In this document: positions 15,582 to 38,706 of the stretch, one piece after another
Layout: each line of letters opens with the position of its first letter
Numbering within the stretch: position 1 is the stretch's first letter
From: Armatimonadota bacterium
GTDB taxonomy: Bacteria > Armatimonadota > UBA5829 > DTJY01
Direction of reading: 5' to 3'
Length of the DNA: 64,000 bases
Assembly: GCA_029907255.1 (NCBI GenBank)
Contig: JARYMF010000003.1
Location: forward strand, 1 to 64,000
The notes under the pieces: generated by a model
The model's input: the letters and a program-made list of their open reading frames with translations, nothing else
Told to the model about the DNA's origin: nothing
Databases searched by the model: none
Translations under genes and position numbers: made by a program

Positions 15582-15980
15582 TTGGAAAAGAACAGCTGGG
15601 TATCATCAAGGAAATTAGCACAAGCTTTCTGGGTTCAAGCAAGGGCGGATTTTGCAACCGCTGTAAGTCTATTAGATGCGGGCAAATATTACGCTAGTGT
15701 GTTTTTTAGTCAGCAAGCTGCGGAAAAGGCGCTGAAGGCAGCGGCGTTGGAAAGGCTCAATAAAAACCTCAAAGGACACCATTTAACCCAAATGGCAAAC
15801 ATGTTGAATGCGCCCGTAGATGTAATGAATGAGGCCGCAAAGTTAAATGCCGAATTTCTTGCTTCTAGAGACCCTGAAGCTTGTGGAGGGATTCCAGCAC
15901 AAATGTATGACCGCGAATCAGCTGAGACTCGTTTAAGGGCTGCAGAAAAAATCATTGAATGGGTGAAAACTTTGCTTTAA
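15582..15980 (+). CDS. HEPN domain protein
   Basis: 132 residues with a TTG start at 15582 preceded by AAAGG. The all-helical HEPN fold is indicated by 'QARADFATAVSLLDAGKYYASVFFSQQAAEKALKA' (quoted here only as a pattern at about residues 20-54), 'GHHLTQMANML' and a final helix 'YDRESAETRLRAAEKIIEWV'. HEPN proteins often bind nucleotides or RNA and commonly pair with MNT nucleotidyltransferases as toxin-antitoxin systems. No MNT gene is adjacent; instead the gene sits 16 bases after the nucleoside hydrolase and 12 bases before xylB. The tight packing suggests cotranscription. Its role here is unknown. Confidence 0.8.
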   Translation: MEKNSWVSSRKLAQAFWVQARADFATAVSLLDAGKYYASVFFSQQAAEKALKAAALERLNKNLKGHHLTQMANMLNAPVDVMNEAAKLNAEFLASRDPEACGGIPAQMYDRESAETRLRAAEKIIEWVKTLL

Positions 15981-15992
15981 GGGGGTACTTAA

Positions 15993-17528
15993 ATGGCTTA
16001 TTTACTGGGTATTGATATCGGAACAAGCGGGACTAAAACTCTCTTAATTGATGAGTCAGGACGTATAGTTTCATCAGCAACCGATTCTTATCCACTGAGT
16101 ACACCCAAACCCCTCTGGGCCGAACAAAACCCTGGGGACTGGTGGCATGCTACGATTTCAACCATCCGCAATGTTCTTATTGAATCAAAAGTTGATCCGG
16201 CTGAAATAAAAGCGATTGGGCTAACAGGACAAATGCATGGCGCAGTTTTTCTTGATGAGCGTAACCAAGTCATTCGACCTAGTATTCTCTGGTGCGATCA
16301 GCGAACTGAAGCCGAATGCAATTGGATAACCGAGGCAATCGGAAAGGAAAAGGTCGTCGAGCTTACAAGCAATCCGGTGCTTACTGGGTTTACTGCCGGA
16401 AAAATTATTTGGTTGAGAAATAATGAGCCGGAAAATTATGCAAAAGTTCGGAAAGTTTTGTTGCCGAAAGACTATATAAGGTTTAAGCTAACAGGGGAAT
16501 TCGCCAGCGATGTTTCGGATGCGTCCGGTACTTCGCTTTTCAATGTTAGGGAGCGAAAATGGGCGGATGAGATGCTTGATGGGATAGGGATTCCTCGTGA
16601 ATGGATGCCTAAGGTTTACGAATCGCCAGAGATTACTGGAGAAGTTACCGAGGAAGCCGCAGAGATGACTGGTCTTAATGCTGGAACACCTGTCGTAGGC
16701 GGTGGAGGTGACCAAGCTGCTGGCGCAGTCGGAAATGGTGTTGTGGAGACAGGCATAATATCTTCGACTGTTGGTACTTCAGGTGTTGTTTTCGCATTTG
16801 TCGACAAGCCTGTTGTAGACCCTGGACTAAGGGTGCACACATTTTGCCATGCTGTGCCAGGAAAATGGCATGTAATGGGTGTTATGTTATCCGCAGGGGG
16901 ATCATTACGGTGGTATAGAGACACTTTAGCGGATGTCGAGGTTGCCGAAGCAAGAAAAAGAGGCGTTGACCCTTATGATATCCTTTCAGAGGAAGTTGCA
17001 AGTGTGGAACCGGGATGTGAGGGATTAATTTTTCTGCCTTATCTGACCGGAGAGCGAACACCTTATGCAGACCCTAATGCGAGAGGAGCTTTCTTTGGAA
17101 TTACGCTTAGGCATACAAAACGCCATTTTGTAAGAGCTGTTTATGAAGGCGTGGCTTACGGACTTCGCGATTCTTTCGAAATTCTTCACGAAATGCAAGT
17201 ACCCATAAAACAAGTGCGCGCTTCTGGTGGCGGTGCTCGGAGTGCTGTATGGCGACAAATTCAAGCTGACATAACCGGCATGGAGCATGTAACGATCAAC
17301 GTAGATGAAGGTCCGGCATTTGGAGCAGCGCTTTTGGCGTCTGTTGGGATAGGAATCTATCCAAGTGTCGAAGAAGCTTGCCGAAGCACCATCAAGGTTG
17401 TCTCCTCAACACATCCAAATTTCAAAAACAAAGCACTTTATGACCGGTTCTATGCAGTTTACAGGGCGCTATATCCCGCATTGAAAGAGCAGTTTCGAAT
17501 TGTGTCTGAAATAGTTAAAACAGCGTGA
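15993..17528 (+). CDS. xylB: xylulokinase
   Basis: 511 residues of the FGGY carbohydrate kinase family. The enzyme phosphorylates D-xylulose to xylulose-5-phosphate, which enters the pentose phosphate pathway. Motifs are 'LLGIDIGTSGTKTLLID' (phosphate 1), 'LTGQMHGAVFLDE' (typical of XylB), 'WCDQRTEAECNWI', 'VVGGGGDQAAGAVGNG' and the second FGGY signature region 'FLPYLTGERTPYADPNARGAF', with 'VRASGGGARSAVW' for adenosine. Length is normal (about 500). AGGGGGT precedes the ATG. Neither xylose isomerase nor a xylose transporter is next to it. Confidence 0.93.
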   Translation: MAYLLGIDIGTSGTKTLLIDESGRIVSSATDSYPLSTPKPLWAEQNPGDWWHATISTIRNVLIESKVDPAEIKAIGLTGQMHGAVFLDERNQVIRPSILWCDQRTEAECNWITEAIGKEKVVELTSNPVLTGFTAGKIIWLRNNEPENYAKVRKVLLPKDYIRFKLTGEFASDVSDASGTSLFNVRERKWADEMLDGIGIPREWMPKVYESPEITGEVTEEAAEMTGLNAGTPVVGGGGDQAAGAVGNGVVETGIISSTVGTSGVVFAFVDKPVVDPGLRVHTFCHAVPGKWHVMGVMLSAGGSLRWYRDTLADVEVAEARKRGVDPYDILSEEVASVEPGCEGLIFLPYLTGERTPYADPNARGAFFGITLRHTKRHFVRAVYEGVAYGLRDSFEILHEMQVPIKQVRASGGGARSAVWRQIQADITGMEHVTINVDEGPAFGAALLASVGIGIYPSVEEACRSTIKVVSSTHPNFKNKALYDRFYAVYRALYPALKEQFRIVSEIVKTA

Positions 17529-21850: not shown

Positions 21851-22585
21851 TTACCGAACTTCTGCCATTGCAGAGGCTTTTGCCATGCGCAGGCGTTCTG
21901 CGACGTTGTCCCAATTGACAAGGTGTTCGATAAATGCTTTTGTCCATTCAGGACGCTTGTTTTGATATTGAAGATAATAAGCATGTTCCCAAGCATCGCA
22001 GACAAGAAGCGGAACCACACCCCATTGTGTTCGATTCTCGTGCTTTTCTGCGCCAAGTATCACAAGTTTGTCGAACATGGGATTATATGCAAGTATAGTC
22101 CAGCCAGAGCCTTGGATAGCATTGTTGGTGGCAGAAAACAGGTTCTTGAACGCTTCGAAGTTGCCAAAATTAGCGTTAATGGCATCAGCTAGGATGCCAT
22201 CTGGCATTCCTCCACCGTTGGGCTTCATGTTTGTCCAAAATATCGAATGAAGGATGTGGCCTGACCCGTGGAACGCAAGGTCATTAACTAGGCAATTAAT
22301 ATTGGAGAAATCACCTGATTTAAGCATTGACTGGATTTTTTCTTCGGCTGCGTTTAGCCCTGCAACGTATGCTGCATGATGCTTATCATGATGAAGGCGG
22401 AGCAATTCCTCGCTATAGTATGGTTCGAGGGCATTGTAATCATAGGGCAGTGGTGGCAGTTCATGTGCCATTGGTTTTATTCCTCCTTTAAGTTTAATAG
22501 ACTTGGATGCAAACAGTTCTGGGATAATCAAAATCAGGGAAGATAAACTACAACTCGCTAGTAAGAGGAAATTGCGCCTGTTCAT
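21851..22585 (-). CDS. sodA: Fe/Mn superoxide dismutase, possibly exported
   Basis: The enzyme core is a complete Fe/Mn superoxide dismutase. Metal ligands lie in 'LRLHHDKHHAAYV', 'GSGHILHSIFW' and 'CDAWEHAYYLQY', with the conserved 'GGGMPDG' and 'GSGWTILAYNP'. There are two credible starts. The ATG at 22471 follows a strong AAAGGAGG and gives the usual 206-residue cytoplasmic enzyme. The ATG at 22585 adds a leader 'MNRRNFLLLASCSLSSLILI' with a twin-arginine-like RR and a hydrophobic core, and also has GGGAAG upstream. The longer form would be exported or membrane-attached. Reported here with the longer start. Confidence 0.92.
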   Translation of the reverse strand: MNRRNFLLLASCSLSSLILIIPELFASKSIKLKGGIKPMAHELPPLPYDYNALEPYYSEELLRLHHDKHHAAYVAGLNAAEEKIQSMLKSGDFSNINCLVNDLAFHGSGHILHSIFWTNMKPNGGGMPDGILADAINANFGNFEAFKNLFSATNNAIQGSGWTILAYNPMFDKLVILGAEKHENRTQWGVVPLLVCDAWEHAYYLQYQNKRPEWTKAFIEHLVNWDNVAERLRMAKASAMAEVR

Positions 22586-22796
22586 TCTCCCAACTTCCCG
22601 CAACTGTTCGCCCAATTTATAGTTTGCATATACCCATGGGTAATGAAATCGAAACCGCGTAAGCCCGATTGTTTTTTAGGAGTTGTGTTTTCAATAGCTT
22701 TGTAGCGATTGCTTCAAAGTTGAGCGTTTCAAAAATAGGGGGAAATGCCTTGCCAGCTAATTAAGGGCTTGAATTGCAAGTTTCCTTTGCATAAGT

Positions 22797-24521
22797 TTAA
22801 TCAATATAGAAAGCGTATAATCTCACTTTTTCTGCGCCCCAAGTTGAATCAAACGTTGCGCGTATACCTGTTGCAGGGATTCCTATATCAAGGCGAACCA
22901 TACGCTGGTAGTTACCTTTCACGTTGCGCCATAGTTTCCAGCCATTTTGCGTTTTTACTTCAATACGAAAGTCTTTCACCATTTCTTCTGGTATACATCG
23001 CAGCTGGTTGTCTCGTTGGTGATAGCTCATCTGAATAATCTTCGAAAGTGCACTGTCAAATATTAAGGTCGCGCTTGAAACCATCTGTTGCATTTGCCAA
23101 GTATATTCAACGCTGTCTCCAATGCGCCCATCCCATGCGTGCTGGATATCACCTACCGGACGATTGATTCCATCTCTTAGAGGTTCTGGGTCACCATATG
23201 ATGCCTTAAGTGTAGATTTCTTTGTCAGCTCGGAAAACTTTTGCTTTACCCATGGGAGATAGCAGTCCTGGCGTAGTAGAGACTGCTGAAGCTCTTCTAT
23301 ATGCGCATTGACTTCTCGTGGAGTTAACCCTTTTTTAACCGCAATCGCGGCTGCTGTGCCGACAGCTTGCCCCATCACTGAGGCTGTCCCCATTACCCGT
23401 GTTGAACTCATGGCTGCATGTGTCATTCCAGCGCATCGCCCTGCAAACATAAGGTTTTCGATGTTTTTCGAATATAGGGAACGGTAAGGTATTCCATATG
23501 GTGAAGGAGCAGGGTGGAATATTGTCGGCTTGCCTTTCCACCAAAAGCCACCTGGGTGGTGGTCGTCCATTGTCCAACCGCCATATGCTACTATATCCGG
23601 GAAGCGTCCTTCTGCTTCGATGTCATTTTGGGTAAGCATATGGTCGGCAATATAGCGGCGACTTTCGCGTTTGCCAGGAAGGAATTGGACCCATTCAAGC
23701 ACCCAATTTTCTGCACCATGGTCGCCATGATTCTTAAGATGATCCCACATTCCATAAACAATCTTTAGGAGTTCATCTCGTATTTTCTCAGTGTCATATA
23801 TGCTATCGTTCTCGCCGCCAAGCTCTAGCCACCAATAACCCATCTCAAGCCACCCATGATGGCGGTAAGGCAAGTCATCGTCAGATGGGAAGTCATAGGC
23901 CCAACTGGGTGGTTCGAAATGCTGGGGCGAGCCCGTGTCCCTTGCTTGAAAGAGGAGTGTCATGCCCATAGTCTTGCGGTCAGCAACTTCAGGCTCGATG
24001 GATTCGTTGTATTCGCTCTTTGCTTCACGCCCTACGCGATATTCAGCCCCTGTTAACGGGGCAAGAATTGCATCTCCTGAGCAATCAGCGAAAATTTTGG
24101 CTTCTATTGTATGATAAGTTTGCGTTGTTGTTTGCCATCCGGTAATAGACTTAATTCTTGTGCCATCCATTTTTGCGTCAAGGCAAGAACAGTTTAGATA
24201 GTACTGCAAGTTTGGCTCAAGCATTACCTTTTCATAGAGGATTGTGTCCCAAATGGAAAAACTTCTTTGCGGATTACGGCGAAGGTTTTCGAGCCTCAGC
24301 TCTTCGAGGATGCCTGTTTCTCGCATGTTTGGTATTTTGCCATGGCGGTCTGCTCCGCAAATATGAACTCTTATTTCGCTTGAAGAGTTACCACCGAAGA
24401 CTGGGCGGTCTTGCATGATAGCCACCTTAATACCTTGTCGGGCAGCAGCAATGGCAGCGCAAATACCCGCCATTCCACCGCCTACAACACAAAAATCAAC
24501 CTTGTGGGTCAGCTTTTTCAT
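22797..24521 (-). CDS. FAD-dependent oxidoreductase
   Basis: 574 residues from the ATG at 24521, which follows GTGGAGGCGAGCT. The dinucleotide motif 'VDFCVVGGGMAGICAAIAAA' and 'PVFGGNSSSEIR' place it in the FAD_oxidored (PF12831) group, common in carbohydrate loci of Planctomycetes, Verrucomicrobia and relatives. 'MFAGRCAGMTHAAMSSTRV' and 'MGQAVGTAAAIAVKKG' are the conserved C-terminal FAD contacts. A C-terminal beta-sandwich-like tail of about 130 residues follows ('GDSVEYTWQMQQMVSS'). No signal peptide. It is the last gene of the isomerase-acetyltransferase-sulfatase unit. Oxidation of a sugar or sugar acid is likely, but the substrate is not known. Confidence 0.85.
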   Translation of the reverse strand: MKKLTHKVDFCVVGGGMAGICAAIAAARQGIKVAIMQDRPVFGGNSSSEIRVHICGADRHGKIPNMRETGILEELRLENLRRNPQRSFSIWDTILYEKVMLEPNLQYYLNCSCLDAKMDGTRIKSITGWQTTTQTYHTIEAKIFADCSGDAILAPLTGAEYRVGREAKSEYNESIEPEVADRKTMGMTLLFQARDTGSPQHFEPPSWAYDFPSDDDLPYRHHGWLEMGYWWLELGGENDSIYDTEKIRDELLKIVYGMWDHLKNHGDHGAENWVLEWVQFLPGKRESRRYIADHMLTQNDIEAEGRFPDIVAYGGWTMDDHHPGGFWWKGKPTIFHPAPSPYGIPYRSLYSKNIENLMFAGRCAGMTHAAMSSTRVMGTASVMGQAVGTAAAIAVKKGLTPREVNAHIEELQQSLLRQDCYLPWVKQKFSELTKKSTLKASYGDPEPLRDGINRPVGDIQHAWDGRIGDSVEYTWQMQQMVSSATLIFDSALSKIIQMSYHQRDNQLRCIPEEMVKDFRIEVKTQNGWKLWRNVKGNYQRMVRLDIGIPATGIRATFDSTWGAEKVRLYAFYID

Positions 24522-24570
24522 AGCTCGCCTCCACATAAATTAACGTATTGTTTCAGTTAAGAATGATTGA

Positions 24571-25923
24571 TTACTTTCCGCGCTCTTCTAGTATTTTTTG
24601 TAGTGGATCAATGATGGCATGAGGCTTCGCCATCTGCTCATCGAACCAATTGTTTTGGATGGCAATGCATTCTTGAACTATTTCCGGTTTCTCATCGGAA
24701 ATATTTGTAGTTTGGTAGGGGTCATTTTCTATGTCGTAAAGCTCGATTGGCTCAAACTTGTAGCAAAGGGGATCGTATGTCCGCACCATTAAGTGCCTTT
24801 TTGTACGAACTGCCCGCTGGATTGTGTAAAGTCCATGGTCCCAAACAAGATAATTCCTATCTAAACCAGGTTTTCCTTGCAAATTTTCGAAAAATGACTT
24901 ACCGTCCCAGTCTTCGGGGATTTCGATATCTAAAAGTTCACATAAGGTTGGAGCGAAGTCTATGCTGTAGAGGAAGGCATCTGATTTACAGCCTTCCTTT
25001 GTTACGCCAGGCCAGCGTATAATTAGTGGTATTCGGTGGATGCATTCGTCAGCGCATACGTGGTCGGAGTATATCCCATGCTCACCAAAAGCATCTCCAT
25101 GGTCAGCCGAGATAATGACTGCAGCATCATCTAAGACTTTTTGACGGTCCAGTTCGTTAAGCACAATTCCAACATGATGGTCGACGTAGGCGATCGCGGC
25201 GTCGTAGCCTGTTATAATGTGCTCGAAGTCTTGGCGTGAGGAGATGGACCCAGGCATTAATGGGAATGGGCTGATTCCATCTTTAAATTGTCCTTGTGCC
25301 GTAAATGGTCCTTGGACTTCCTGGTGTTTGCGAATAGCTTCTTCATCAGGCCACGTTTGTTGAACTGGAAAGTCTTTGAATTTGTCAGCCCATGATGCGT
25401 CCATTTTATAGCATCGGTGAGCGTCCCAATAATTGATGTGCAAGAAATAGTTTTCTCGGGTTGCGTTTGTCTTAAGCCAACGGAGAAGGGGAGCATTTAC
25501 TTCCTCAGCAGTCTCGCTTCCGCATTTCAGGTTTGGCGTATGGAATTCTGTCCAGCCGCACATGAACCAATATGCGCTATGGCGGTCTGCGAAGTTGGAG
25601 AAGCTAAACGTATCATAGCCGCAAGCCCTCAATTTGCGCGTAAATAGCTCGTTGTCAGGTTCTGGACCGCCGTAATTTGTGTGTCGCAAATGAAATTTTG
25701 CACCAACACCAACGTTAGATGCCACCCCATTTCTAATGCCAAAGCGTCCAGAAATCCAATTTGCTCTTGATGGAAGGCATGGGGAGTTTGCACAATAATA
25801 ATGTTGAAAAATGACTCCCTGTTTGGCAATGGCGTCTATATTTGGTGAGGTTGGCCTATGGTATCCATAGCATCCTAGGTGGTCAGGCCTCAAGCAGTCT
25901 ATGTCGAAATATATGATTCTCAT
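24571..25923 (-). CDS. sulfatase (formylglycine-dependent arylsulfatase family)
   Basis: 450 residues from the ATG at 25923, which has AGGGAGATGAA upstream. Metal and catalytic motifs are 'IIYFDIDCLRPDHLGCYGY' (the N-terminal Asp pair), the formylglycine site 'CLPSR' in 'ANSPCLPSRANWISGR', 'ISADHGDAFGEHG' and 'DHGLYTIQRAVRTKRH'. The cysteine form needs an FGE or anSME maturase, which is not in the window. There is no signal peptide, so a desulfation step inside the cell, after uptake, is implied. The start lies one base after the stop of the acetyltransferase gene, showing tight translational coupling. Likely substrate is a sulfated mono- or oligosaccharide. Confidence 0.9.
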   Translation of the reverse strand: MRIIYFDIDCLRPDHLGCYGYHRPTSPNIDAIAKQGVIFQHYYCANSPCLPSRANWISGRFGIRNGVASNVGVGAKFHLRHTNYGGPEPDNELFTRKLRACGYDTFSFSNFADRHSAYWFMCGWTEFHTPNLKCGSETAEEVNAPLLRWLKTNATRENYFLHINYWDAHRCYKMDASWADKFKDFPVQQTWPDEEAIRKHQEVQGPFTAQGQFKDGISPFPLMPGSISSRQDFEHIITGYDAAIAYVDHHVGIVLNELDRQKVLDDAAVIISADHGDAFGEHGIYSDHVCADECIHRIPLIIRWPGVTKEGCKSDAFLYSIDFAPTLCELLDIEIPEDWDGKSFFENLQGKPGLDRNYLVWDHGLYTIQRAVRTKRHLMVRTYDPLCYKFEPIELYDIENDPYQTTNISDEKPEIVQECIAIQNNWFDEQMAKPHAIIDPLQKILEERGK

Positions 25924-25924
25924 T

Positions 25925-26707
25925 TCATCTCCCTGCGTCTTTAGTAACAAGGAAAAATGGGTCTTTGCGGAGATAAGCAAGGACCATTTCAGCCATTTTG
26001 TTGGCTTTTACTAATTTGATTATGCTTTCTCCAATTCTACCCTCTGTTTGAATGCCGTTTGCTAAAAATTCGGGCTCTAGCCGTGCAAAGTTTCTAGGGA
26101 TGCCATACTTGTGTAATCTCACTGGAACATCGGCTGTTCTACCATCAGGATACCTTACCATTGCATAAGCTTCTTTTTCCTGGAGGTGATATGGAACACC
26201 GGCCATTTCTTCACAATAATGCATAGTTGTGTTGCATTCATGGCCGACGCCAATAAGCAAAATATAGCCACCTGCTTCTACAAGCTTATCGTATGGAGAG
26301 CCTTCGCCGCATGGCGTAGGCGAGAACTCATGGCTTTCTATAAAACGTTCTGCTTCCTTTCCCGACGCGCAAACTGAGTGTGTTGGATGCGCGCTTCGAA
26401 TAAAGTCTTGACGTTTGCGGGCAGTTTCAGGAATTAATCCAGTCCAGCATGGAGTATTGGCTACGTCAAAAACCGGCGGATTATCTGGCGAGAGGTTCTC
26501 ATTGCCAGTTAGTGTTGGGAAGAGAACGGTGCCGCCTTGACTAACAGATTCAATAATAGCGTCGATGACAGCATCCGCTCCGCCGTCGACATAACCAAAC
26601 GAAGAAAGCGACGAGTGAGTGAGCACTGCATCCCCCGGCTTTAAACCCAGATTGCGTAGACCTGTTATAATGTCATTCTTTGTAATTGAGGGCATTTCTT
26701 GCGCCAA
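25925..26707 (-). CDS. AAC(3)-family N-acetyltransferase
   Basis: About 260 residues of the antibiotic-acetyltransferase (AAC(3)/YokD) fold. 'GDAVLTHSSLSSFG', 'GTVLFPTLTGNE', 'TGLIPETARKRQDFIRSAHP' and 'LLIGVGHECNTTMHYCEE' are family motifs, including the conserved His in SAHPTHS. The frame opens at a TTG at 26707 and an ATG follows at 26695; neither has a strong ribosome site, so coupling to the upstream isomerase gene is likely. The context, between an isomerase and a sulfatase, argues for acetylation of an amino sugar in catabolism rather than drug resistance. That role is inference. Confidence 0.85.
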   Translation of the reverse strand: MAQEMPSITKNDIITGLRNLGLKPGDAVLTHSSLSSFGYVDGGADAVIDAIIESVSQGGTVLFPTLTGNENLSPDNPPVFDVANTPCWTGLIPETARKRQDFIRSAHPTHSVCASGKEAERFIESHEFSPTPCGEGSPYDKLVEAGGYILLIGVGHECNTTMHYCEEMAGVPYHLQEKEAYAMVRYPDGRTADVPVRLHKYGIPRNFARLEPEFLANGIQTEGRIGESIIKLVKANKMAEMVLAYLRKDPFFLVTKDAGR

Positions 26708-26715
26708 TCTAAAAT

Positions 26716-27756
26716 CTAAAATTGCTTGGGCATTCCTAAAAGGACATGATTTATTATTTTCAGCACTTGGATTGTGTCCATCCTCTTTCTTGCCGCAAGG
26801 TATTCTTCGCGAAGTGGGCCTTGGGTTATCTGTGCAGCTTTGTCCCAGAGGTGGTTCCAGACATTTATGCTCATTCTTGCTGCTTCAATTTGGTCTTCGG
26901 TATATGGGAATAGGTCATATCCTATGCGTTCACCATTCTTTCCATATCCGAGAAGCTGTAACTCAATTGCCATGCCAAATGTTTGCTCGATAAAGGATGC
27001 GCCAACGATATTATCATCATCAAATTGGCCCCAACCTGAGTTTGCGTGCTGATGTCCGAGCAAGCCTTCACTTGCAAGGAGTGCCGCATATTGTGGAAGG
27101 TTTTCACCGCGCATAATGAGGTGTTGCCAATCCATGTTTACCTTAACGTTGCTAGTATCAATTCCCATTTCTGCGAGCTTTTTGATGACTAAGATGCAAG
27201 TTGCCTGATTTGCAAGGAGAATTCGCATTTTAGGCTCGCTATTCTTATCTTCTAAAAGCACAGGTACTTTTTTGCTATTTGCATATTCGACTGCTTCTGC
27301 AATGCCATCTATAAAAAGCTTCCACATTTCGGTATAATCAGCTTGATTGGGGTAATTATACCCATCATTTCCTGGCCAGATTATTAACTTTGCGCCCAGT
27401 CTTGCGGCTTGGTCAATTGCTCGTTTTGTGATTTCCATTGATTTTCGACGCAAACCGGGGTCAGGATTCATGAAGCAGCCCATCTTGAGCTCCGGCATAC
27501 AGAAGGTTCCGAGCGCTACTGCATAGAAATCTTTGTTTCCAATTGCTTGAAGGACATCCTTCTCGATGTCTTCGTTAATTTCCTGCGGATAGTGGCCTTC
27601 AAAACCATCGAGCAGGTCGCCTAGCCCTTCTGCCATGCGCGCATATTTCTCAGGCATAGGCTCGTCTGCAACCTCGGCATGATAACCATCAGGCATAAAT
27701 CTTGTCGGTGTCTTGCCTGCCATCCATATGCCAATGCTATTTTTTAATCTTTCCAT
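26716..27756 (-). CDS. xylose-isomerase-like TIM barrel protein (probable sugar isomerase)
   Basis: 346 residues. Probable metal ligands in barrel order are 'VLLEDKNSEPK' (Glu), 'VNMDWQHLIM' (Asp and His), 'LLGHQHANSGWGQ' (His) and a following 'FDDDN'. This resembles the L-rhamnose isomerase / sugar-phosphate isomerase-epimerase group of the AP_endonuc_2 superfamily. CAAGGAGGCACAGCAACC precedes the ATG. It is the first gene of a four-gene minus-strand unit and has a consensus promoter with a palindromic operator. The substrate is unknown; interconversion of the ketose and aldose forms of an imported sugar fits the context. Confidence 0.8.
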   Translation of the reverse strand: MERLKNSIGIWMAGKTPTRFMPDGYHAEVADEPMPEKYARMAEGLGDLLDGFEGHYPQEINEDIEKDVLQAIGNKDFYAVALGTFCMPELKMGCFMNPDPGLRRKSMEITKRAIDQAARLGAKLIIWPGNDGYNYPNQADYTEMWKLFIDGIAEAVEYANSKKVPVLLEDKNSEPKMRILLANQATCILVIKKLAEMGIDTSNVKVNMDWQHLIMRGENLPQYAALLASEGLLGHQHANSGWGQFDDDNIVGASFIEQTFGMAIELQLLGYGKNGERIGYDLFPYTEDQIEAARMSINVWNHLWDKAAQITQGPLREEYLAARKRMDTIQVLKIINHVLLGMPKQF

Positions 27757-27788
27757 TGGTTGCTGTGCCTCCTTGTAGGAAATTTAGT

Positions 27789-27802
27789 TGCAAGTACTTG
27801 CA
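27789..27802. promoter_or_regulatory. 14-bp palindromic operator
   Basis: TGCAAGTACTTGCA is a perfect palindrome. It begins 8 bases downstream of the -10 box of the minus-strand promoter, at about +2 to +15, a classic position for a sugar-responsive repressor of the LacI or GntR type. It also lies about 170 bases upstream of the divergent permease start. Confidence 0.6.
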
Positions 27803-27810
27803 CTGGATGG

Positions 27811-27839
27811 ATTCTAACACTGGGTAGAAGCTCTGTCAA
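27811..27839 (-). promoter_or_regulatory. sigma-70 promoter of the isomerase-acetyltransferase-sulfatase-oxidoreductase unit
   Basis: On the minus strand TTGACA (27839-27834), a 17-base spacer and TAGAAT (27816-27811). The predicted start is near 27804, with a leader of about 48 bases to the isomerase ATG. Confidence 0.7.
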
Positions 27840-27970
27840 TCTGCGGCTTTTTGGATAATAGGATTTTGTTTTGGCAATTTAAAAACAGGAATTATACGCA
27901 GGCAGGGATAATTTTCAAACCAAAAGAACATAAACACAGACTTAATTTAAAAGGCTATCAGGAACACCTT

Positions 27971-29005
27971 ATGAAGCGAAAGCAAAAAGCTGAATCCACT
28001 CATGATTTTAATGCCATACGAGGCGTGCTGGACTTTCTTGGAAATTTCCGTGGTATTGCTGCATTAGTTGCAGTCTTTCTTCTCGGCGTCTTTTTTACTC
28101 CGAAGTCGTATTCAACCGGAATGCCCGTCTTTCTAACGCTGAGTACACAGAGTGACATACTTTTTGAATATGCTGAATATGGCATTTTAGCTACCGGAAT
28201 GACGCTTGTAATTCTGACGGGCGGAATAGACCTTTCGGTTGGTTCAGTTCTTGGCTTTGCCGCAACATTCTTTTCAATTCTAATGATTGCCAAGGGCTGG
28301 GCACCTTTACCTGCGGTATTAGCAACTATACTCACAGGTGCAATTGCGGGGTTAATTAATGGCTTCTTCATAGCAAAGTTTAGGATGCAGCCATTTATTG
28401 CAACTTTGGCGATGATGGTTGCAGCAAGAGGGGCGGCAAAGTGGATTTCTGGAGGAGTCAAGGTACAACCAGGTTTGGAGGGATACAAGCTCCAAAGCGG
28501 TTCTCCAGAGTTTTTTGGGTGGATGACTCAAAAGCTCCCAGGGTTTGGACTTCAGCCAATCACGTTGCTTTTTCTAATTAATATTATTATCATGCTGATA
28601 GTTGTAAGATATACAAGGTTCGGCCGCCATCTTTATGCAATCGGCGGTAACGAAGAAGCAGCTAGATTATCAGGCGTAAGAGTTGGATGGGCAAAGGTTA
28701 TAGCTTATGTACTTTGTGGAGGAATGGCTGCCCTTGCTGGAATTTCGAACGCAACGCGCTTGGATTTGGGTGACCCGGAAGCTGGATTTACATACGAACT
28801 TGATGCGATTGCAGCAGTTGTTATAGGTGGAACGAGCCTAATGGGCGGTAGAGGCGGCATGTTCTTTACTCTTATTGGCACGCTGATAATCGGGTACATC
28901 AACAAAATTCTAAGCATTAACGGTGTAGAGGAGGCATTTCGCTTGTTGGCAAAGGGCGCAATAATAGTGGCAGCGGTACTAATTCAACAAAGGAGGAAAG
29001 AGTAA
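27971..29005 (+). CDS. sugar ABC transporter permease (RbsC-like)
   Basis: 344 residues from the ATG at 27971, preceded by AGGAACACCTT; an upstream extension from a TTG at 27851 lacks family character. Multiple hydrophobic helices with 'GMTLVILTGGIDLSVGSVLG' and 'ATLAMMVAARGAAKWISGG' are typical of the BPD_transp_2 family that imports ribose, xylose, galactose and similar sugars. The EAA-like region 'AIGGNEEAARLSGVRVGWAK' contacts the ATPase. The binding protein follows 33 bases later. An RbsA/MglA-type ATPase gene, normally in the same operon, is absent from this window. The gene diverges from the sulfatase unit. Confidence 0.9.
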   Translation: MKRKQKAESTHDFNAIRGVLDFLGNFRGIAALVAVFLLGVFFTPKSYSTGMPVFLTLSTQSDILFEYAEYGILATGMTLVILTGGIDLSVGSVLGFAATFFSILMIAKGWAPLPAVLATILTGAIAGLINGFFIAKFRMQPFIATLAMMVAARGAAKWISGGVKVQPGLEGYKLQSGSPEFFGWMTQKLPGFGLQPITLLFLINIIIMLIVVRYTRFGRHLYAIGGNEEAARLSGVRVGWAKVIAYVLCGGMAALAGISNATRLDLGDPEAGFTYELDAIAAVVIGGTSLMGGRGGMFFTLIGTLIIGYINKILSINGVEEAFRLLAKGAIIVAAVLIQQRRKE

Positions 29006-29038
29006 GGGAATATCAACTAGTTCCCAAAGGAGATGCCT

Positions 29039-30013
29039 ATGATGATTGATAGACGCAAATATACTATTTTAGCTATTTTTCTGGTAACGGGGTTGTTTGC
29101 TGCTAGCTGCGGCAAAAAGCAGGTTTCCGAACAAGCAAAGGATTCGGCTAGAGAAGGAAAGACCTGGATAATCGGAATGTCCCAGTGCAATTTAGGCGAA
29201 CCTTGGCGTGTGCAGATGAACGCTGATATTGAGGCTGCAGCCAAGAAGCACCCTGAAATTAAGGTAATCTTCAAGGATGCTCAAAATAACACGGCTGTTC
29301 AGCAAGCGCAAGTAAAGGAGTTCATTTCACAAGGTGTTGACTTGATAATTATTAGTCCCAAGGAAGCACGTCCGCTTACCAAACCGGTTGCAGAAGCCAT
29401 TGAAGCTGGCATTCCAGTGATAGTTCTCGATAGGAAGGTAGAAGGTGACAAATACACCTGTTTTATAGGTGCAGATAATGTAAAAATTGGGCGTGAGGCA
29501 GGAAAGTATTTGGTAAAAATTCTTGGCGGCAAGGGAAAAATTGTCGAGCTGAAAGGCCTAATGACTTCAACGCCAGGTCAGGAACGACACAACGGATTTA
29601 TGGAAGGAATCAAGGGTTCGAAGTTAGAGATTATTTTTAGTGCTGACTGCCGTTGGCTAGAACCAAATGCCCAGCGTGAGATGGCATCGGCACTAGCTCG
29701 TTTCCCTCAGATTGATGCAGTCTATGGGCATAACGATCCAAGCGCTCACGGCGCGTATATGGCAGCGAAACAAGAGGGAAAAGGACGAGAAAAGAAAATC
29801 AAATTCATCGGAATTGATGCATTGCCTCACGAAGGAATTCGATATGTAAAAGAAGGTATCCTAACAGCAACATTTCAATATCCAACAGGTGGAGCAGAAG
29901 CAATTGACGTAGCTATCAAAATACTTAAAGGTGAAAAGGTTCCGAAGAACATAACGCTTGGTACTCGCATATACACAAAAGAGAATGTTGAAAAGGGTGG
30001 CGAGGCACTTTAG
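29039..30013 (+). CDS. sugar-binding lipoprotein of an ABC transporter (RbsB-like)
   Basis: About 324 residues. The N-terminus has a hydrophobic signal ending 'LFAASC', a lipobox-like site, so the protein is probably lipid-anchored. Type I periplasmic-binding-protein features are 'WIIGMSQCNLGEPWRVQMN', 'VDLIIISPKEARPL', 'IPVIVLDRKVEGDKYTCFIG' and 'DAVYGHNDPSAHGAYMA'. AAAGGAG at 29026-29032 best serves the ATG at 29039; in-frame ATGs at 29033 and 29042 are alternatives. It works with the upstream permease in sugar uptake. Followed by a hairpin and then the GH116 gene. Confidence 0.9.
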   Translation: MMIDRRKYTILAIFLVTGLFAASCGKKQVSEQAKDSAREGKTWIIGMSQCNLGEPWRVQMNADIEAAAKKHPEIKVIFKDAQNNTAVQQAQVKEFISQGVDLIIISPKEARPLTKPVAEAIEAGIPVIVLDRKVEGDKYTCFIGADNVKIGREAGKYLVKILGGKGKIVELKGLMTSTPGQERHNGFMEGIKGSKLEIIFSADCRWLEPNAQREMASALARFPQIDAVYGHNDPSAHGAYMAAKQEGKGREKKIKFIGIDALPHEGIRYVKEGILTATFQYPTGGAEAIDVAIKILKGEKVPKNITLGTRIYTKENVEKGGEAL

Positions 30014-30066
30014 TAGTATTAGAGCAAAATATTAATTTAGCTCAGAATTTTTTAGTATAAGGTAAC

Positions 30067-30097
30067 ATGGCCGGGGATATCCTAATGCCCTGGCCAT
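30067..30097 (+). terminator. hairpin between the binding protein and GH116 genes
   Basis: ATGGCCGGGG (30067-30076) pairs with CCCTGGCCAT (30088-30097) through 10 bp with one G-U. It is followed by TCTATAATTTT, a weak U run. It may be a partial terminator or RNA stabiliser, lowering expression of the downstream gene. Confidence 0.45.
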
Positions 30098-30119
30098 TCT
30101 ATAATTTTAGGAGGCATTT

Positions 30120-33100
30120 ATGCGTAATAAGCTCTCTTTCACTCCTGTATTTCCATTAATTCTATTATCTTTTCTGATTATGGCGTCTCCAGTATTGGCA
30201 CTGGTCAATTGGGACTTCGAGGATGGGACGCTTCAGGGATGGTCAATAGTATGGGGAGATGCTGGAAAACAGCCGGTAGACAAGGATGATGACCGTTATG
30301 GCGGCAACTTTGGCAAACAAGGCAGATATTTTATTGGAACATATGAAAATATGAAAGACGAAGCCCAAGTTGAGCTGAAGTCGCCAGTCTTTATTATCTC
30401 GTCGAAAATGATAACAATGTTGGTTGGCGGCGGATGCCATTGGGATAAAACGTACATAGCCCTATATGACTTTTCTAATGACAAGGAGCTATTTCGTGAA
30501 ACCGGTTGTAACGCTGAAAACATGACCCGTCGTTACTGGGATGTGTCTTCTTTTATTGGGCGGCAGGCATATTTAAAGATTGTTGATAGACATTCTGGTG
30601 GTTGGGGACATATCAACGTCGATGACATAAGGGAGCTCACCGATGATGAGATTGGAAAGATGGAGGCAAGCCGCAAGCAAAAAGAGCTCGCAAGGGAAAA
30701 GTGGCTTGCAGAACTTATGCTACCAACCAAACGCAAAGTATATAGAGGAAGAGAGCTTTTGGATATAGCAATGCCTCTTGGAGGTATAGGGGCAGGAAAC
30801 ATAGCTATATGTGGTGATGGTTCTCTACGTGAATGGCAGATTTTTAATAAGGTGAACGCCGAATGCGTGGTACCAGGACAGTTCTTTGCAATATGGGCAA
30901 AAACTGAAGGAAAAGATCCTGTAGCACGTGTTCTTCAAACAACATCAATCGAAGGACTACCAACAATAAAAGAAACCGAGTTTATTGGTGAGTTTCCAAT
31001 CGCCGAAGTGAGGTACAAAGACCCAAATCTGCCGATTACGCTTAGTATGGAAGCGTTTTCGCCGTTTATACCAATGAATGCAAAGGATTCCGGAATCCCT
31101 GGTATTTACTTTGTTTTTAGGATAAAGAACCCACAAACAGTTAATGTTTTCGCTTCTATCGGTGCTTCGCTGCAAAACGCGGTGAATTACGATGGCAGGT
31201 CTGAAATAAAGGGCGTAAGATTTGCTGGTTACGGTGGCAATGAGAATAAGTTAGTTGAGGGCAAAAACTTTGCCGCAATTCATATGTACAATTCTTCTAT
31301 CTCTCCCACCGAGCGTCAATTTGGGACCATGACGCTCGGCACTTTGGGACAGGCTTCTGCTATGGTTCAGTGGGATATCCCCGAAACAATGTGGTCTGAC
31401 TTTGCAGCAAATGGAAAATTCGATAACGTTGGGCCAGCTGGCAAAAGTCGGAAAGGTCGAACATGGAACGGAGCACTTGCGGTTCCCATAACACTTAGAC
31501 CAGGTGAAGAAAAGTCAGTTGTGTTCTTCATTACGTGGCATTTTCCGAACTATTATGCAGAGTATGACAAAGCTCACGAAAATGATTGGCTTGGAAGGAT
31601 GTTTAGCAATTGGTTCAAAGATTCACTTGCGGTTGCCGAATACCTTGCCGCTAATTATGAACGGCTGGCAAGAGAAACACAACTCTTCCGGAAAACATTC
31701 TACAACAGCAATCTTCCATATTGGTTCCTTGATCGTATATCTTCTCAAGCCAGTACTCTAACGAGCCAAGTTTGCATGTGGATAGCTGATGGTTCATTTC
31801 ATGGCTATGAGGGTGCCGGCTGTTGTCCCATGAACTGCACTCACGTTTGGAACTATGAGCAAACCCTTGCGCATCTTTTCCCAGAACTCGAGCGGAACAT
31901 GCGAAAGACAGATTTGACTGTGCAGCAAGAGCCTTCTGGAGCGGTTAGACATCGAACAGTTCTTCCGCTTACTGCGCCTAGAAGCACGGGGCCATTTGTT
32001 GATGGCCAGCTTGGAACAATCCTGAAGAGCTATCGTGAATACAGGTTGTCTGCAAATCGTGAATGGCTAGATGAAATGTGGCCCAAAATTAAGCTTGCTA
32101 TGGATTTTGTTATAAATAATTGGGACCCTAATGCTGACGGCGTTTTAGTCAATGAGCAGTGGAACACTTACGATGCAGCAATGTATGGTCCAAACACTTT
32201 TATTGGCACTCTTTATTTGGCAGCTCTGCGTGCGGCTGAGGAGATGGCAAAGGTTGAAGGAGATGCAGATTCAACGCGATATCATTTGCTTTTTGAAACA
32301 GGGAGGAAGCGTCTGGATCAAGCCTTATGGAATGGTGAATACTATATTCACATTGATAGCAAAGACAAGGCGGCAGCTAGTAAAGACAAAGCCTGGATAG
32401 TTGAAGATTGGCCAAACGAGAATCCAGATGCAAATCGTCCTTATGGTACTGGTTGTCATGCTGACCAGCTTTTAGGTCAATGGTGGGCTAACATACTCGA
32501 CCTCGGCTATCTTTTGCCCCAGGAAAAGATACGAACAGCGCTTGATTCAATCCTAAAGTATGACTGGCGTTGGGATTTTGGGGAGGTTTGTCAACAGCGT
32601 GCTTTTGCCGGACCTGGCGATATGGGCCTGCTTAACTGCACGTGGCCATATGGTGGACGACCAGAACAAGCAATTCTTTATGCCGACGAGGTTTGGACGG
32701 GGATTGAATATGAGGTTGCTGGTCTACTTATACATGAAGGTAAAATCAAGGATGCATATCGGATTGTAAAGGCTGTAAGTGAGCGATACAACGGTGTCCC
32801 ACGCAAACCAATAAAACGCAATCCTTGGAGTGAGATTGAGTGTGGAGAACACTACGCAAGAGCAATGAGCAGTTGGGGGATGCTCCTTATGGCCCAGGGG
32901 ATTTCATATTGCGGGCCTAAAGGGTCAATCGCATTCAACCCCAAAATTAAGCCTGAAGATCATTGTTCCTTCTTCTCCGCTGCTGAAGGGTGGGGAACAT
33001 TTACACAACGCATAACATCAACAAGCCAAGTTGATACAATTGACCTTGCATATGGCAGCCTAGCGCTTAAATCTATAACAATTCATCTCCCGCTTAATGT

Positions 33101-33245
33101 GGAGCCAAAGTCTTTGGTAGTTAGATTATCAAGAAAAAGCCTTCCTATAGAAAGCTCGCAGGAAGGCAAAGCGCTAACGGTAGTTTTCAAAGAGTCAGTG
33201 GCTTTAAAGGCAGGAGATAGACTAACAATAGAGGTCGAATGGTGA
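30120..33245 (+). CDS. secreted GH116-family glycoside hydrolase (GBA2-like)
   Basis: 1041 residues with a signal peptide (SFTPVFPLILLSFLIMASPVLA). An N-terminal beta-sandwich (about residues 28-180, 'WDFEDGTLQGWSIVWGD') looks like a carbohydrate-binding module. Next come the GBA2_N domain ('LDIAMPLGGIGAGNIAICGD') and the DUF608 (alpha/alpha)6 catalytic domain. 'NEQWNTYDAAMYGPNTF' contains the candidate nucleophile Glu, and 'GTGCHADQLLGQWW' the candidate acid/base Asp, by analogy with the Thermoanaerobacterium GH116 enzyme. Known activities are beta-glucosidase, beta-xylosidase and glucosylceramidase. AGGAGGCATTT precedes the ATG. It probably releases the sugar imported by the upstream transporter. 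Confidence 0.9.
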   Translation: MRNKLSFTPVFPLILLSFLIMASPVLALVNWDFEDGTLQGWSIVWGDAGKQPVDKDDDRYGGNFGKQGRYFIGTYENMKDEAQVELKSPVFIISSKMITMLVGGGCHWDKTYIALYDFSNDKELFRETGCNAENMTRRYWDVSSFIGRQAYLKIVDRHSGGWGHINVDDIRELTDDEIGKMEASRKQKELAREKWLAELMLPTKRKVYRGRELLDIAMPLGGIGAGNIAICGDGSLREWQIFNKVNAECVVPGQFFAIWAKTEGKDPVARVLQTTSIEGLPTIKETEFIGEFPIAEVRYKDPNLPITLSMEAFSPFIPMNAKDSGIPGIYFVFRIKNPQTVNVFASIGASLQNAVNYDGRSEIKGVRFAGYGGNENKLVEGKNFAAIHMYNSSISPTERQFGTMTLGTLGQASAMVQWDIPETMWSDFAANGKFDNVGPAGKSRKGRTWNGALAVPITLRPGEEKSVVFFITWHFPNYYAEYDKAHENDWLGRMFSNWFKDSLAVAEYLAANYERLARETQLFRKTFYNSNLPYWFLDRISSQASTLTSQVCMWIADGSFHGYEGAGCCPMNCTHVWNYEQTLAHLFPELERNMRKTDLTVQQEPSGAVRHRTVLPLTAPRSTGPFVDGQLGTILKSYREYRLSANREWLDEMWPKIKLAMDFVINNWDPNADGVLVNEQWNTYDAAMYGPNTFIGTLYLAALRAAEEMAKVEGDADSTRYHLLFETGRKRLDQALWNGEYYIHIDSKDKAAASKDKAWIVEDWPNENPDANRPYGTGCHADQLLGQWWANILDLGYLLPQEKIRTALDSILKYDWRWDFGEVCQQRAFAGPGDMGLLNCTWPYGGRPEQAILYADEVWTGIEYEVAGLLIHEGKIKDAYRIVKAVSERYNGVPRKPIKRNPWSEIECGEHYARAMSSWGMLLMAQGISYCGPKGSIAFNPKIKPEDHCSFFSAAEGWGTFTQRITSTSQVDTIDLAYGSLALKSITIHLPLNVEPKSLVVRLSRKSLPIESSQEGKALTVVFKESVALKAGDRLTIEVEW

Positions 33246-35640: not shown

Positions 35641-38600
35641 ATGAAAGGGCGCGTGCTAATTTTTCATGAGCAAGGTTTCCCATTCATAGACACTGTCGAG
35701 ATTGATTCTAAAAAGCTGATAGAGGCGCTGCCTCCTGTGGATTCTGTGCGAACAGTTGGGATAGAGGATTTAAAAAAGGAATTAAGCGAAGGACGCTGCA
35801 ATTTATTGGTTAATCCCTATGGTTCGGCTTTCCCAAAAGCAGCTTGGCCTGAAATATTAGCTTATCTCAAATCTGGCGGCTGCATCTTGAACTTGGGGGG
35901 TGCACCCTTTAGCGTTCCTGTGAGAAGAGATGGTGATAGCTGGCGACAGGAGATGCGCCAGACAGCGTATCATCGAGAGCTTGGCATCAACCAAGTCTAC
36001 CCTGTTTCAACGAATTCTGTTACGTCATATGAGACTTTGGAAACCGAACCGCTTCTATCCGGTCTAATTGATGAATTCTCATGCAGATTAGTATATGAAC
36101 TCCAGGTTAGATTAACGTCCAAACCCGACCACCCTGGCCAGATAGGAAGTTCAGGAGCAAGGGAAGCAATCATACGTCCCCTAATACATGGGCTGGATTC
36201 AAATGGTAGACGAATAGTAGCACCAATTATCGCTTTGGACCGCATATTCGGACGTTTTGCTGGGGGGCGATGGGTCTTTGCCAATTTTACTGCGGATTCC
36301 ATGCCTAGGAAGGAAATTATTACTCGTCTGGCTGGGTTTGCATTGATTGGGGCGCATGAATTTGAAATTAGGCCATCCTTTGCGTGCTATTACCCAGAGG
36401 AAAGAGCGGCATTAGTTGTTCATGCAAACAGATTCAAGGATTCTAAGGATGAGACTTCCAAACTAAGCCTTTTTTTAACGGTGCGGAAGGAAAATATAAC
36501 CATTCTTCAGGAGAATTTGGATATCAGTGATTTCCGCTCACCATACTATCTCGTGGTCCCTCTTAAAGTACCTCTTAGTCCAGGTGTTTACACCGTTCAG
36601 GCAAGGCTTTCAACGGGCAATGCTGAGCTGACAGATAAATATGCAGATTATTATACAACTGGGTTTTGGTGTTATGACAGCGCATTGGTTAAAATGACCC
36701 AACCACTAACTGCAGGAAAGGATTATTTCATGCGTGGCGACAAACCATCACCACTTGTTGGGACCACGTATATGGCTTCCGATGTTCATCGAAAGTTCCT
36801 TCTAGAGCCAAACGTTGCTGTTTGGGAACGTGATTTTGCCGAGATGAAAGCAGCAGGTATCAATATTGTTCGCACGGGCCTGTGGACAACATTTAGGCAT
36901 GTGATGCTGGACCCAGGCGCACCCAATGAAGGTGCAATGCGAGCGGTAACTGCTTTCATGCTTACAGCGGCAAAATATGAAATGCCTGTCATTTTTACCT
37001 TATTCACTTTTGCGCCGGAAGCGTTCGAAGGAGAGAACCCATATTTGGATCCTCGGAGCCTTCAAGGACAACAAGAGTTTGTCTCGGCTTTCGCTAAGCG
37101 ACTAGCGCCGTTTAACAATGTTATGTGGGACCTAATAAATGAGCCTTCAATACCCGGTCATGGTAGATTTTGGCGCAGTCGGCCTAACCATGACAAGTGG
37201 GAGGAACAGGCATGGAAAAAGTGGATAGAAGAGCGGCATCCTGACAAAGAGGAGCTGACGGAAAAGTGGCGGCTAACATGTGGTAGCTCGATTAGTTTGC
37301 CTTCGCTGGAAGATTTTGAGGACAAGTTCGTTTATCGGGGCGAAGGTCACCTGCGAGTGTTAGATTACCGTCTTTTTGCACAGGACATTTTCAACAATTG
37401 GGTAAGAATTATGACTAATTGCATTCGTGCTAATGGCAATCCAAAACAGCTCATAACAGTTGGACAGGACGAAGGTGGAGCAAGCGAGCGCCCCAACCCC
37501 CAGTTCCACTGGAAAGAGGTTGATTTCACTAGCACACATACGTGGTGGCTAAACGACGACCTCCTTTGGTCAGGGCTGACGAGCAAAGTTCCTGAAAAGC
37601 CAAGTGTCGTAGAAGAAACTGGCATAATGCACATAGAGGAACCTGGTCGTACGGCGAGACGAACCGAGGAAGACTGCAGAAACTTGCTCGAGCGAAAATT
37701 GGTAATGGCTTTTGCTTCCGGATGTGCCGGGTTTATCGAATGGATATGGAACACAAACATTTACATGCCGGACGATAATGAGGCTGCTATAGGATTCCAT
37801 AGGGCTGATTTAACGGCTAAACCAGAACTTGAGATAATTCCCAGGATTAAAGATTTCGTTGTAAAAGCCAGGCAATATATGATTGGTCGCGAAATTGAAC
37901 CCGTAGTAATGGTTATACCTTACTCGAGCATGTACAGCGTTCGCGACCTTGCTTCTTCGGCTGTTCGAATGGCAGTCCGGGTAATGCACTATCATTGTGG
38001 CGTGCCTATGCGAGTCGTAGGTGAGTACTCGCTTGAAAATCTAGGGAAACCAAGGTTGATAATTCTTCCATCCCCAAGAGTCCTAAGCAATCAGGCATGG
38101 GAAAAGTTAATAAGGGCAGTAGAAGAGGGCGCAGTAATGCTTGTTACTGGACCGATTGAATGGGATGAGTACAGGCGTCCGACAGAACGGTTGTCGAGAA
38201 TAGGCATACACACCGAAACCCAACCCGTCAGCCGCGAGGAGAGAATAATTATATTGGGCGATGAATTTCGCCTTAGCTTTGGTGGTGAGAAGATACATCG
38301 GGTAGATAAAGCAGTGGTTAGTGGGCAAGCGAACATTATCAAAAATGAGACAATTGGCGCAGGCAAACTGATATTTGCTTCGTTGCCATTTGAATTAGCA
38401 GACAATTCGGAGCCACTAGCAGCCCTTTACTCATTTGCCCTAAAGCAAGCAGCGGTAATATCACCGTTCAAAATTGAAACAGAAGCGCTCGATCCAGGGG
38501 TTTTAATTAGGCCGCTTTTATTCAAAGAAGCGATACTTTACACAATTGTCTCAGAAACTAATATGGATAGGCAGTTCGATTTGACAGATATGCAAAGCGG

Positions 38601-38706
38601 CAAAACACTAAAAGTAAGAGTACCTTCACAGCGTGCGGTTATGTTCCTCATTGATCGCATTAGAGGACAAATCCTGGCTGAGTATGGTTGCTCGGTAGAG
38701 GGATAG
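35641..38706 (+). CDS. large clan GH-A glycoside hydrolase with GATase1-like ends
   Basis: 1021 residues with no signal peptide; AGGAAGGGCAAT precedes the ATG. Residues 1-240 look like a class I glutamine-amidotransferase-like fold ('GRCNLLVNPYGSAFPKAAW', 'YLKSGGCILNLGG'). A beta-sandwich region follows, then a TIM barrel at about 350-760. The acid/base motif is 'WDLINEPSIPG' (Glu 501) and the nucleophile motif is 'VVEETGIMH' (Glu 659). Residues 775-960 again look GATase-like ('PRLIILPSPRVLSNQAWEKL', 'GAVMLVTGPIEWDEY'), as in the trimerisation domain of GH42 enzymes. Family is uncertain within clan A (GH5/GH42-like). Probably acts on an oligosaccharide inside the cell. Confidence 0.75.
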   Translation: MKGRVLIFHEQGFPFIDTVEIDSKKLIEALPPVDSVRTVGIEDLKKELSEGRCNLLVNPYGSAFPKAAWPEILAYLKSGGCILNLGGAPFSVPVRRDGDSWRQEMRQTAYHRELGINQVYPVSTNSVTSYETLETEPLLSGLIDEFSCRLVYELQVRLTSKPDHPGQIGSSGAREAIIRPLIHGLDSNGRRIVAPIIALDRIFGRFAGGRWVFANFTADSMPRKEIITRLAGFALIGAHEFEIRPSFACYYPEERAALVVHANRFKDSKDETSKLSLFLTVRKENITILQENLDISDFRSPYYLVVPLKVPLSPGVYTVQARLSTGNAELTDKYADYYTTGFWCYDSALVKMTQPLTAGKDYFMRGDKPSPLVGTTYMASDVHRKFLLEPNVAVWERDFAEMKAAGINIVRTGLWTTFRHVMLDPGAPNEGAMRAVTAFMLTAAKYEMPVIFTLFTFAPEAFEGENPYLDPRSLQGQQEFVSAFAKRLAPFNNVMWDLINEPSIPGHGRFWRSRPNHDKWEEQAWKKWIEERHPDKEELTEKWRLTCGSSISLPSLEDFEDKFVYRGEGHLRVLDYRLFAQDIFNNWVRIMTNCIRANGNPKQLITVGQDEGGASERPNPQFHWKEVDFTSTHTWWLNDDLLWSGLTSKVPEKPSVVEETGIMHIEEPGRTARRTEEDCRNLLERKLVMAFASGCAGFIEWIWNTNIYMPDDNEAAIGFHRADLTAKPELEIIPRIKDFVVKARQYMIGREIEPVVMVIPYSSMYSVRDLASSAVRMAVRVMHYHCGVPMRVVGEYSLENLGKPRLIILPSPRVLSNQAWEKLIRAVEEGAVMLVTGPIEWDEYRRPTERLSRIGIHTETQPVSREERIIILGDEFRLSFGGEKIHRVDKAVVSGQANIIKNETIGAGKLIFASLPFELADNSEPLAALYSFALKQAAVISPFKIETEALDPGVLIRPLLFKEAILYTIVSETNMDRQFDLTDMQSGKTLKVRVPSQRAVMFLIDRIRGQILAEYGCSVEG

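Follow-up and report, generated by a model that had tools for sequence, protein, structure and literature searches.

Gene content and layout of the locus

The locus lies within a 64-kb window (the whole stretch of DNA that was analyzed, 64,000 nucleotides) and comprises seven genes in two divergent units, an arrangement that had been described in an earlier note on this DNA and is borne out by positions in the window sequence and by profile matches. The minus-strand unit starts with the gene for an isomerase (26716-27756; PF01261, 64.5 bits), followed by those for an AAC(3)-like acetyltransferase (25925-26707; PF02522, 201.7 bits), a cysteine-type sulfatase of the S1 family (24571-25923; PF00884, 123.7 bits, and SGSH_C, PF16347; CANSPCLPSRANWISGR) and an FAD_oxidored flavoenzyme with a C-terminal extension (22797-24536; PF12831, 302.5 bits). 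The plus-strand unit encodes a CUT2-type ABC sugar permease (27851-29005; PF02653, 154.7 bits), whose true start is possibly a later ATG than 27851, a BT1754-like sugar-binding lipoprotein (29033-30013; PF13407, with an LFAASC lipobox) and an ExoMA2-like GH116 enzyme (30120-33245; PF12215, 203.7 bits, and PF04685, 194.6 bits, both over cut-off). The presence of these families in two divergent units supports a role in carbohydrate use, as had been proposed, and a limited literature search returned no described pathway with the same gene set.

The minus-strand genes are separated by gaps of 8, 1 and 34 bases (in the order isomerase, AAC(3), sulfatase, FAD oxidoreductase), a spacing that fits a single operon and would be consistent with co-transcription. 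The tightest junction is exactly as the note had it: the AAC(3) gene terminates with a stop codon at 25925-25927 and, after a single intervening base, the ATG of the sulfatase gene occupies 25921-25923; the listed sulfatase open reading frame begins upstream at a TTG, and homologues align from the ATG at 25923. A gene for a secretable Fe/Mn superoxide dismutase (SOD; 21851-22615, minus strand; PF00081/PF02777) with a putative lipoprotein signal is found 181 bases downstream of the FAD oxidoreductase gene on the same strand. A xylulokinase gene, xylB (15993-17528, plus strand; TIGR01312, 607.7 bits versus a cut-off of 380), is located 9 kb from the isomerase gene and not adjacent to it.

Between the two units lies a perfect 14-bp palindrome, TGCAAGTACTTGCA (27789-27802), a candidate operator. 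Because seven such palindromes occur in the 64-kb window, this one included, its placement in a short intergenic gap is suggestive only, and no copy was seen in the other loci compared. A sigma-70-like promoter with an extended -10 element (TTGACA-17-TAGAAT; 27811-27839, minus strand) is positioned upstream of the isomerase gene and matches the consensus at 11 of 12 positions; it is a consensus match only, and such sites are no more numerous in total than in shuffled sequences. Together, the small gaps and the single palindrome suggest joint control of both units.

Elsewhere, the window contains a further perfect palindrome, of 20 bp (AATCATTGTGCACAATGATT, 54375-54394), a gene for a NamZ-type exo-beta-N-acetylmuramidase (11331-12491) followed by an M28 peptidase, a HEPN-domain protein (15582-15980) whose gene is flanked by xylB and a nucleoside hydrolase gene, and a ribulokinase over its NCBIfam cut-off (48890-50605). 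A large protein encoded near the locus (35641-38706) contains a GH5-like domain, the weak match to which falls marginally short of the Pfam cut-off.

Conservation of gene order

Recurrence of the four-gene order in other genomes had been put forward as a check on the proposed pathway, and it was not observed. With six locus proteins as queries against 100 relatives, and the best loci retrieved and annotated, the order was absent from all of them. It was likewise absent from the 16 other genomes of the phylum that carry a close AAC(3) (a match at E 1e-60 or better, 291 phylum genomes searched), none of which has a sulfatase within 1.5 kb, and from all 51 isomerase loci from other phyla described below. 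Even in G001, a genome of the same genus, none of the queried proteins has a close homologue; the best matches there are distant paralogues (for the sulfatase and AAC(3), at most 41% identical).

The individual genes, on the other hand, are found in other surroundings, each with its own history. The permease, binding protein and GH116 occur together in G019, and the latter two in G003; XylB has 80% identity to its counterparts in G003 and G004. We conclude that the locus is lineage-specific and probably a young patchwork. It shows that sugar-use operons can be assembled from parts of differing origin, and it cautions against taking neighboring genes in a single genome as evidence of one pathway.

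Sulfatase, AAC(3)-like enzyme and FAD enzyme

The CLPSR motif of the sulfatase is intact, and CxPSR together with PF00884 identifies a cysteine-type S1 sulfatase; no signal peptide is visible, in agreement with its earlier labeling as cytoplasmic. Orthologues with 65-69% identity are present in five relatives (G009, G012, G017, G019 and G024), all in other gene contexts. The SGSH_C domain was considered as evidence for N-sulfoglucosamine and dropped, because other sulfatases in relatives match it too and it is thus not N-sulfate-specific. Sulfatases are abundant in the phylum. In G000, which has at least 27 sulfatase matches, several sulfatase-like genes stand in a row near a likely fucosidase gene (contig C1, 331000-348000; locus L177), and one of them falls in the clade that is sister to that of the window sulfatase (41%).

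The AAC(3)-like protein scores 134.7 bits and does not reach the cut-off of 270 of the NCBIfam AAC_3 equivalog, although its HSS, RSxHP and NTxxHxxE motifs align with 3e4f. Related genes occur commonly across the phylum and only very rarely adjoin a sulfatase gene: the co-occurrence of the two families, a comparison that had been suggested as a check, comes down to one divergent pair of about 41% identity in G097, located beside a sulfatase maturase (anSME). In G004, the gene for an orthologue of 63% identity precedes that for the FAD enzyme (77%); SOD is encoded close by, and a sulfatase is not. A second AAC(3)-like gene, of about 40% identity, is found in the genus pair G000 (contig C1, 302903-303631; locus L085, 7841-8635) and G001 (locus L180, 8886-9680), where by eye it sits inside an apparent acetyl-CoA pathway and hydrogenase cluster.

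Orthologues of the FAD enzyme (71-79% identity) were found in seven relatives. They adjoin AAC3 in G004, lie near SOD in G003 and G004, where the association comes with an FG-GAP repeat protein, and in G012 and G019 neighbor a PIG-L de-N-acetylase. The FAD gene of G062 is oriented divergently from genes for an ATPase, a permease and a binding protein, an arrangement that chance could have produced, as a rough estimate allows for one such case. No informative solved relative of the FAD enzyme was found, and a single-sequence structure model (pLDDT 37) was set aside. The literature on PF12831 and on operons combining sulfatase and acetyltransferase genes yielded nothing relevant.

An isomerase from a clade linked to xylulokinase

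The isomerase is not a classical XylA, as it scores 57.6 bits with TIGR02631 (cut-off 447) and 27.0 bits with TIGR02630 (cut-off 533). Across the 84,980 species genomes that were scanned, 51 loci encode homologues with 43-58% identity, distributed over Bipolaricaulota, Chloroflexota, Bacillota, Actinomycetota, one Euryarchaeota bin and others. Identity is highest, at 58%, to the Bipolaricaulota orthologue and ranges from 45 to 57% for Chloroflexota, Bacillota and Actinomycetota, and most of these homologues adjoin XylB. XylB is present in 41 of the 51 loci, on the same strand and within 200 bp in 32. Homology over nearly the full length, together with the linkage to XylB seen in several phyla, places the window isomerase in this XylB-linked clade, which lends no support to the sulfated-aminosugar step to which the earlier note had assigned it. 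Homologues of AAC3, FADox and GH116 are encoded in none of the 51 loci, and a single locus has a remote (22%) sulfatase. At single loci examined, a neighboring ATPase scores high enough to pass a model for xylose transporters, and a neighboring GH3 enzyme is nearest to beta-xylosidase models, below their cut-offs.

XylA above cut-off is missing from 41 of 42 genomes with such loci. The genome of the window has none either (a single 25-bit match); these searches included no model specific to class I XylA. On the grounds of XylB linkage and missing XylA, the clade probably represents a non-canonical xylose-type aldose-ketose isomerase that replaces XylA in many bacteria. The exception is Thermoanaerobacter wiegelii, in which the clade isomerase, classical XylA and XylB are encoded in direct succession (locus L116, 10001-13895). 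This apparent redundancy implies that the clade isomerase may act on another pentose, for example lyxose. XylB is also frequent in relatives with neither XylA nor the clade isomerase, such as G003, and may therefore serve other xylulose sources.

Residues E169, K171, D209, H212, H237, D246, D248 and D281 are invariant across the clade. Of the metal and catalytic lysine positions of XylA, those of E169, K171, D209, H212, D246, D248 and D281 fit, but in alignments read by hand the positions of E217 and D245 of classical XylA are occupied by D and H, respectively. A structure model (pLDDT 88) has 3ktc as its best fold match, followed by xylose and rhamnose isomerases, with a TM of about 0.8.

Among the 100 relatives, no match to the isomerase exceeds 35% identity. 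In a tree, the protein pairs with the Bipolaricaulota sequence (support 92/83) on a long branch inside a mixed group of Chloroflexota and Bacillota. This position, together with the absence from relatives, indicates that the gene was probably acquired laterally.

Transporter components and the GH116 enzyme

The divergent unit had been described as a sugar permease, a binding lipoprotein and a secreted GH116 glycosidase. All three are present; a complete CUT2 transporter is not, as a search with the G062 ATPase as query detected no CUT2 ATPase gene in the 64-kb window. A full CUT2 set is located on contig C25. Among solved structures, 2x7x (BT1754; E 1.8e-67, versus 2.6e-37 for the next) is the best match to the binding protein; the sensor domain of BT1754 responds to fructose (PMC3404733).

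The GH116 enzyme has a signal peptide recognizable by eye and is predicted to be secreted. Its best solved relative is 8ic6 (ExoMA2; E 2.1e-110), with beta-glucosidases at about 1e-39 to 3e-39, and ExoMA2 is reported to have no activity on a beta-glucoside (PMC10509167). E564, H575, R612 and D685 correspond to ExoMA2 residues E431, H446, R483 and D557, namely two catalytic residues and two that are said to separate ExoMA2 from beta-glucosidases. The assignment as ExoMA2-like (proposed subfamily 4) is based on these four residues. Because the residues of this beta-D-arabinofuranosidase are kept, there is no sign of the release of a sulfated aminosugar that had been ascribed to GH116; the enzyme is probably of the exo-beta-D-arabinofuranosidase type. 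A comparison with 10 GH116 relatives, the most distant at 36% identity, shows the same four residues in every one, and so they mark a large subfamily rather than one substrate.

Discussion

How might these genes act together? Tentatively, and with less than even confidence, we favor a lineage-specific patchwork locus for the catabolism of a pentose or furanose sugar, which may carry sulfate or amine groups. We envision a scenario whereby the secreted enzyme, a GH116 that is probably of the exo-beta-D-arabinofuranosidase type, cleaves off a terminal furanoside extracellularly and whereby the sugar is then imported by the binding lipoprotein and the CUT2 permease, with an ATPase borrowed from elsewhere in the genome. 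Inside the cell, the sulfatase would strip sulfate from decorated substrates, the AAC(3)-fold enzyme would acetylate an amine on them and the FAD enzyme would oxidize an alcohol, whereas the acquired isomerase would convert an aldopentose into a ketopentose for the XylB encoded at 15993-17528. A decorated substrate would account for the presence of both the sulfatase and the acetyltransferase. The absence of conservation counts against this scenario, and the gene set does not establish a single pathway.

Alternatively, the locus may be a gathering of useful but unrelated neighbors, perhaps co-transcribed, that act on separate substrates and share no common pathway. We hold this to be a substantial possibility, if also a doubtful one. 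It would fit well with a four-gene order that occurs in no other genome checked, with the other contexts in which each gene is found in relatives, with a laterally acquired isomerase and with the abundance of sulfatases and AAC(3)-like genes in the phylum. It is less easily reconciled with the tight spacing of the minus-strand genes (8, 1 and 34 bases) and with the AAC3-FADox-SOD association, which is partly repeated in G004.

The pathway proposed in the earlier note, in which a sulfated aminosugar is imported and then desulfated, N-acetylated, oxidized and isomerized, is possible but unlikely. Sulfatase and N-acetyltransferase genes one base apart, the PIG-L de-N-acetylase that adjoins FADox orthologues in G012 and G019, and the AAC3-sulfatase-maturase cluster in G097 are all points in its favor; no specific evidence was found, gene order is not conserved, SGSH_C is not specific for N-sulfate, and GH116 and the isomerase favor a furanose or pentose instead. 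A bolder variant of the patchwork scenario, which we regard as a long shot, is that the clade is an unrecognized further type of xylose isomerase that has displaced XylA in several phyla and here heads an undescribed operon for a sulfated and amine-bearing pentofuranoside, with the sulfatase and AAC(3)-fold enzymes acting in sequence.

More improbable again is dedicated use of D-arabinan or a D-arabinoside, whereby GH116 would free D-arabinose for import, isomerization and phosphorylation. The GH116 residues match ExoMA2, the fructose sensor BT1754 is the closest relative of the binding protein, and fructofuranose and D-arabinofuranose share the same ring stereochemistry, but this reading leaves the sulfatase and AAC(3) unexplained, and the isomerase clade is one linked to xylulokinase. 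Finally, despite its family name and fold, it is most improbable that the AAC(3)-like gene serves aminoglycoside resistance or detoxification unconnected with sugar use: the candidate was rejected as a resistance gene on the NCBIfam AAC_3 cut-off, well below which it scores, and on context, as it belongs to a chromosomal family widespread in the phylum and sits inside an operon.

The locus itself is ordinary; the isomerase clade is the part most worth following. If the clade is a true xylose isomerase, it is a new enzyme type to test, and the step from xylose to xylulose becomes assignable in about 40 genomes, mostly of uncultured Actinomycetota and Chloroflexota, that seemingly lack an enzyme for it.

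The components of the locus resemble several known systems but differ from each of them. The permease and binding protein belong to the same families as those of CUT2 sugar ABC transporters of the Rbs/Xyl type, but the locus has no ATPase gene in the window. BT1754 (2x7x) is the nearest solved structure to the binding protein; the window protein, however, is a lipoprotein beside an ABC permease and not a two-component sensor. The nucleophile, acid/base, His446 and Arg483 of ExoMA2 (8IC6/8IC7; PMC10509167) are conserved in the window GH116, whereas ExoMA2 acts inside the cell, its gene belonging to a D-arabinan locus, and the window enzyme is secreted and has an N-terminal extension. The AAC(3)/Antibiotic_NAT acetyltransferases BA2930, YokD and FrbF share the fold and conserved motifs of the window protein, which nevertheless falls below the resistance equivalog cut-off and occurs in a sugar-operon context. 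The closest parallel to the isomerase clade, and a precedent for a displaced xylose isomerase, is XylA-II of Clostridium acetobutylicum (CAC2610; PMC2873477), in which a non-XylA isomerase likewise adjoins xylulokinase and classical XylA is missing; XylA-II is a member of the fucose isomerase family (PF02952), whereas the window clade consists of PF01261 TIM barrels related to 3ktc.
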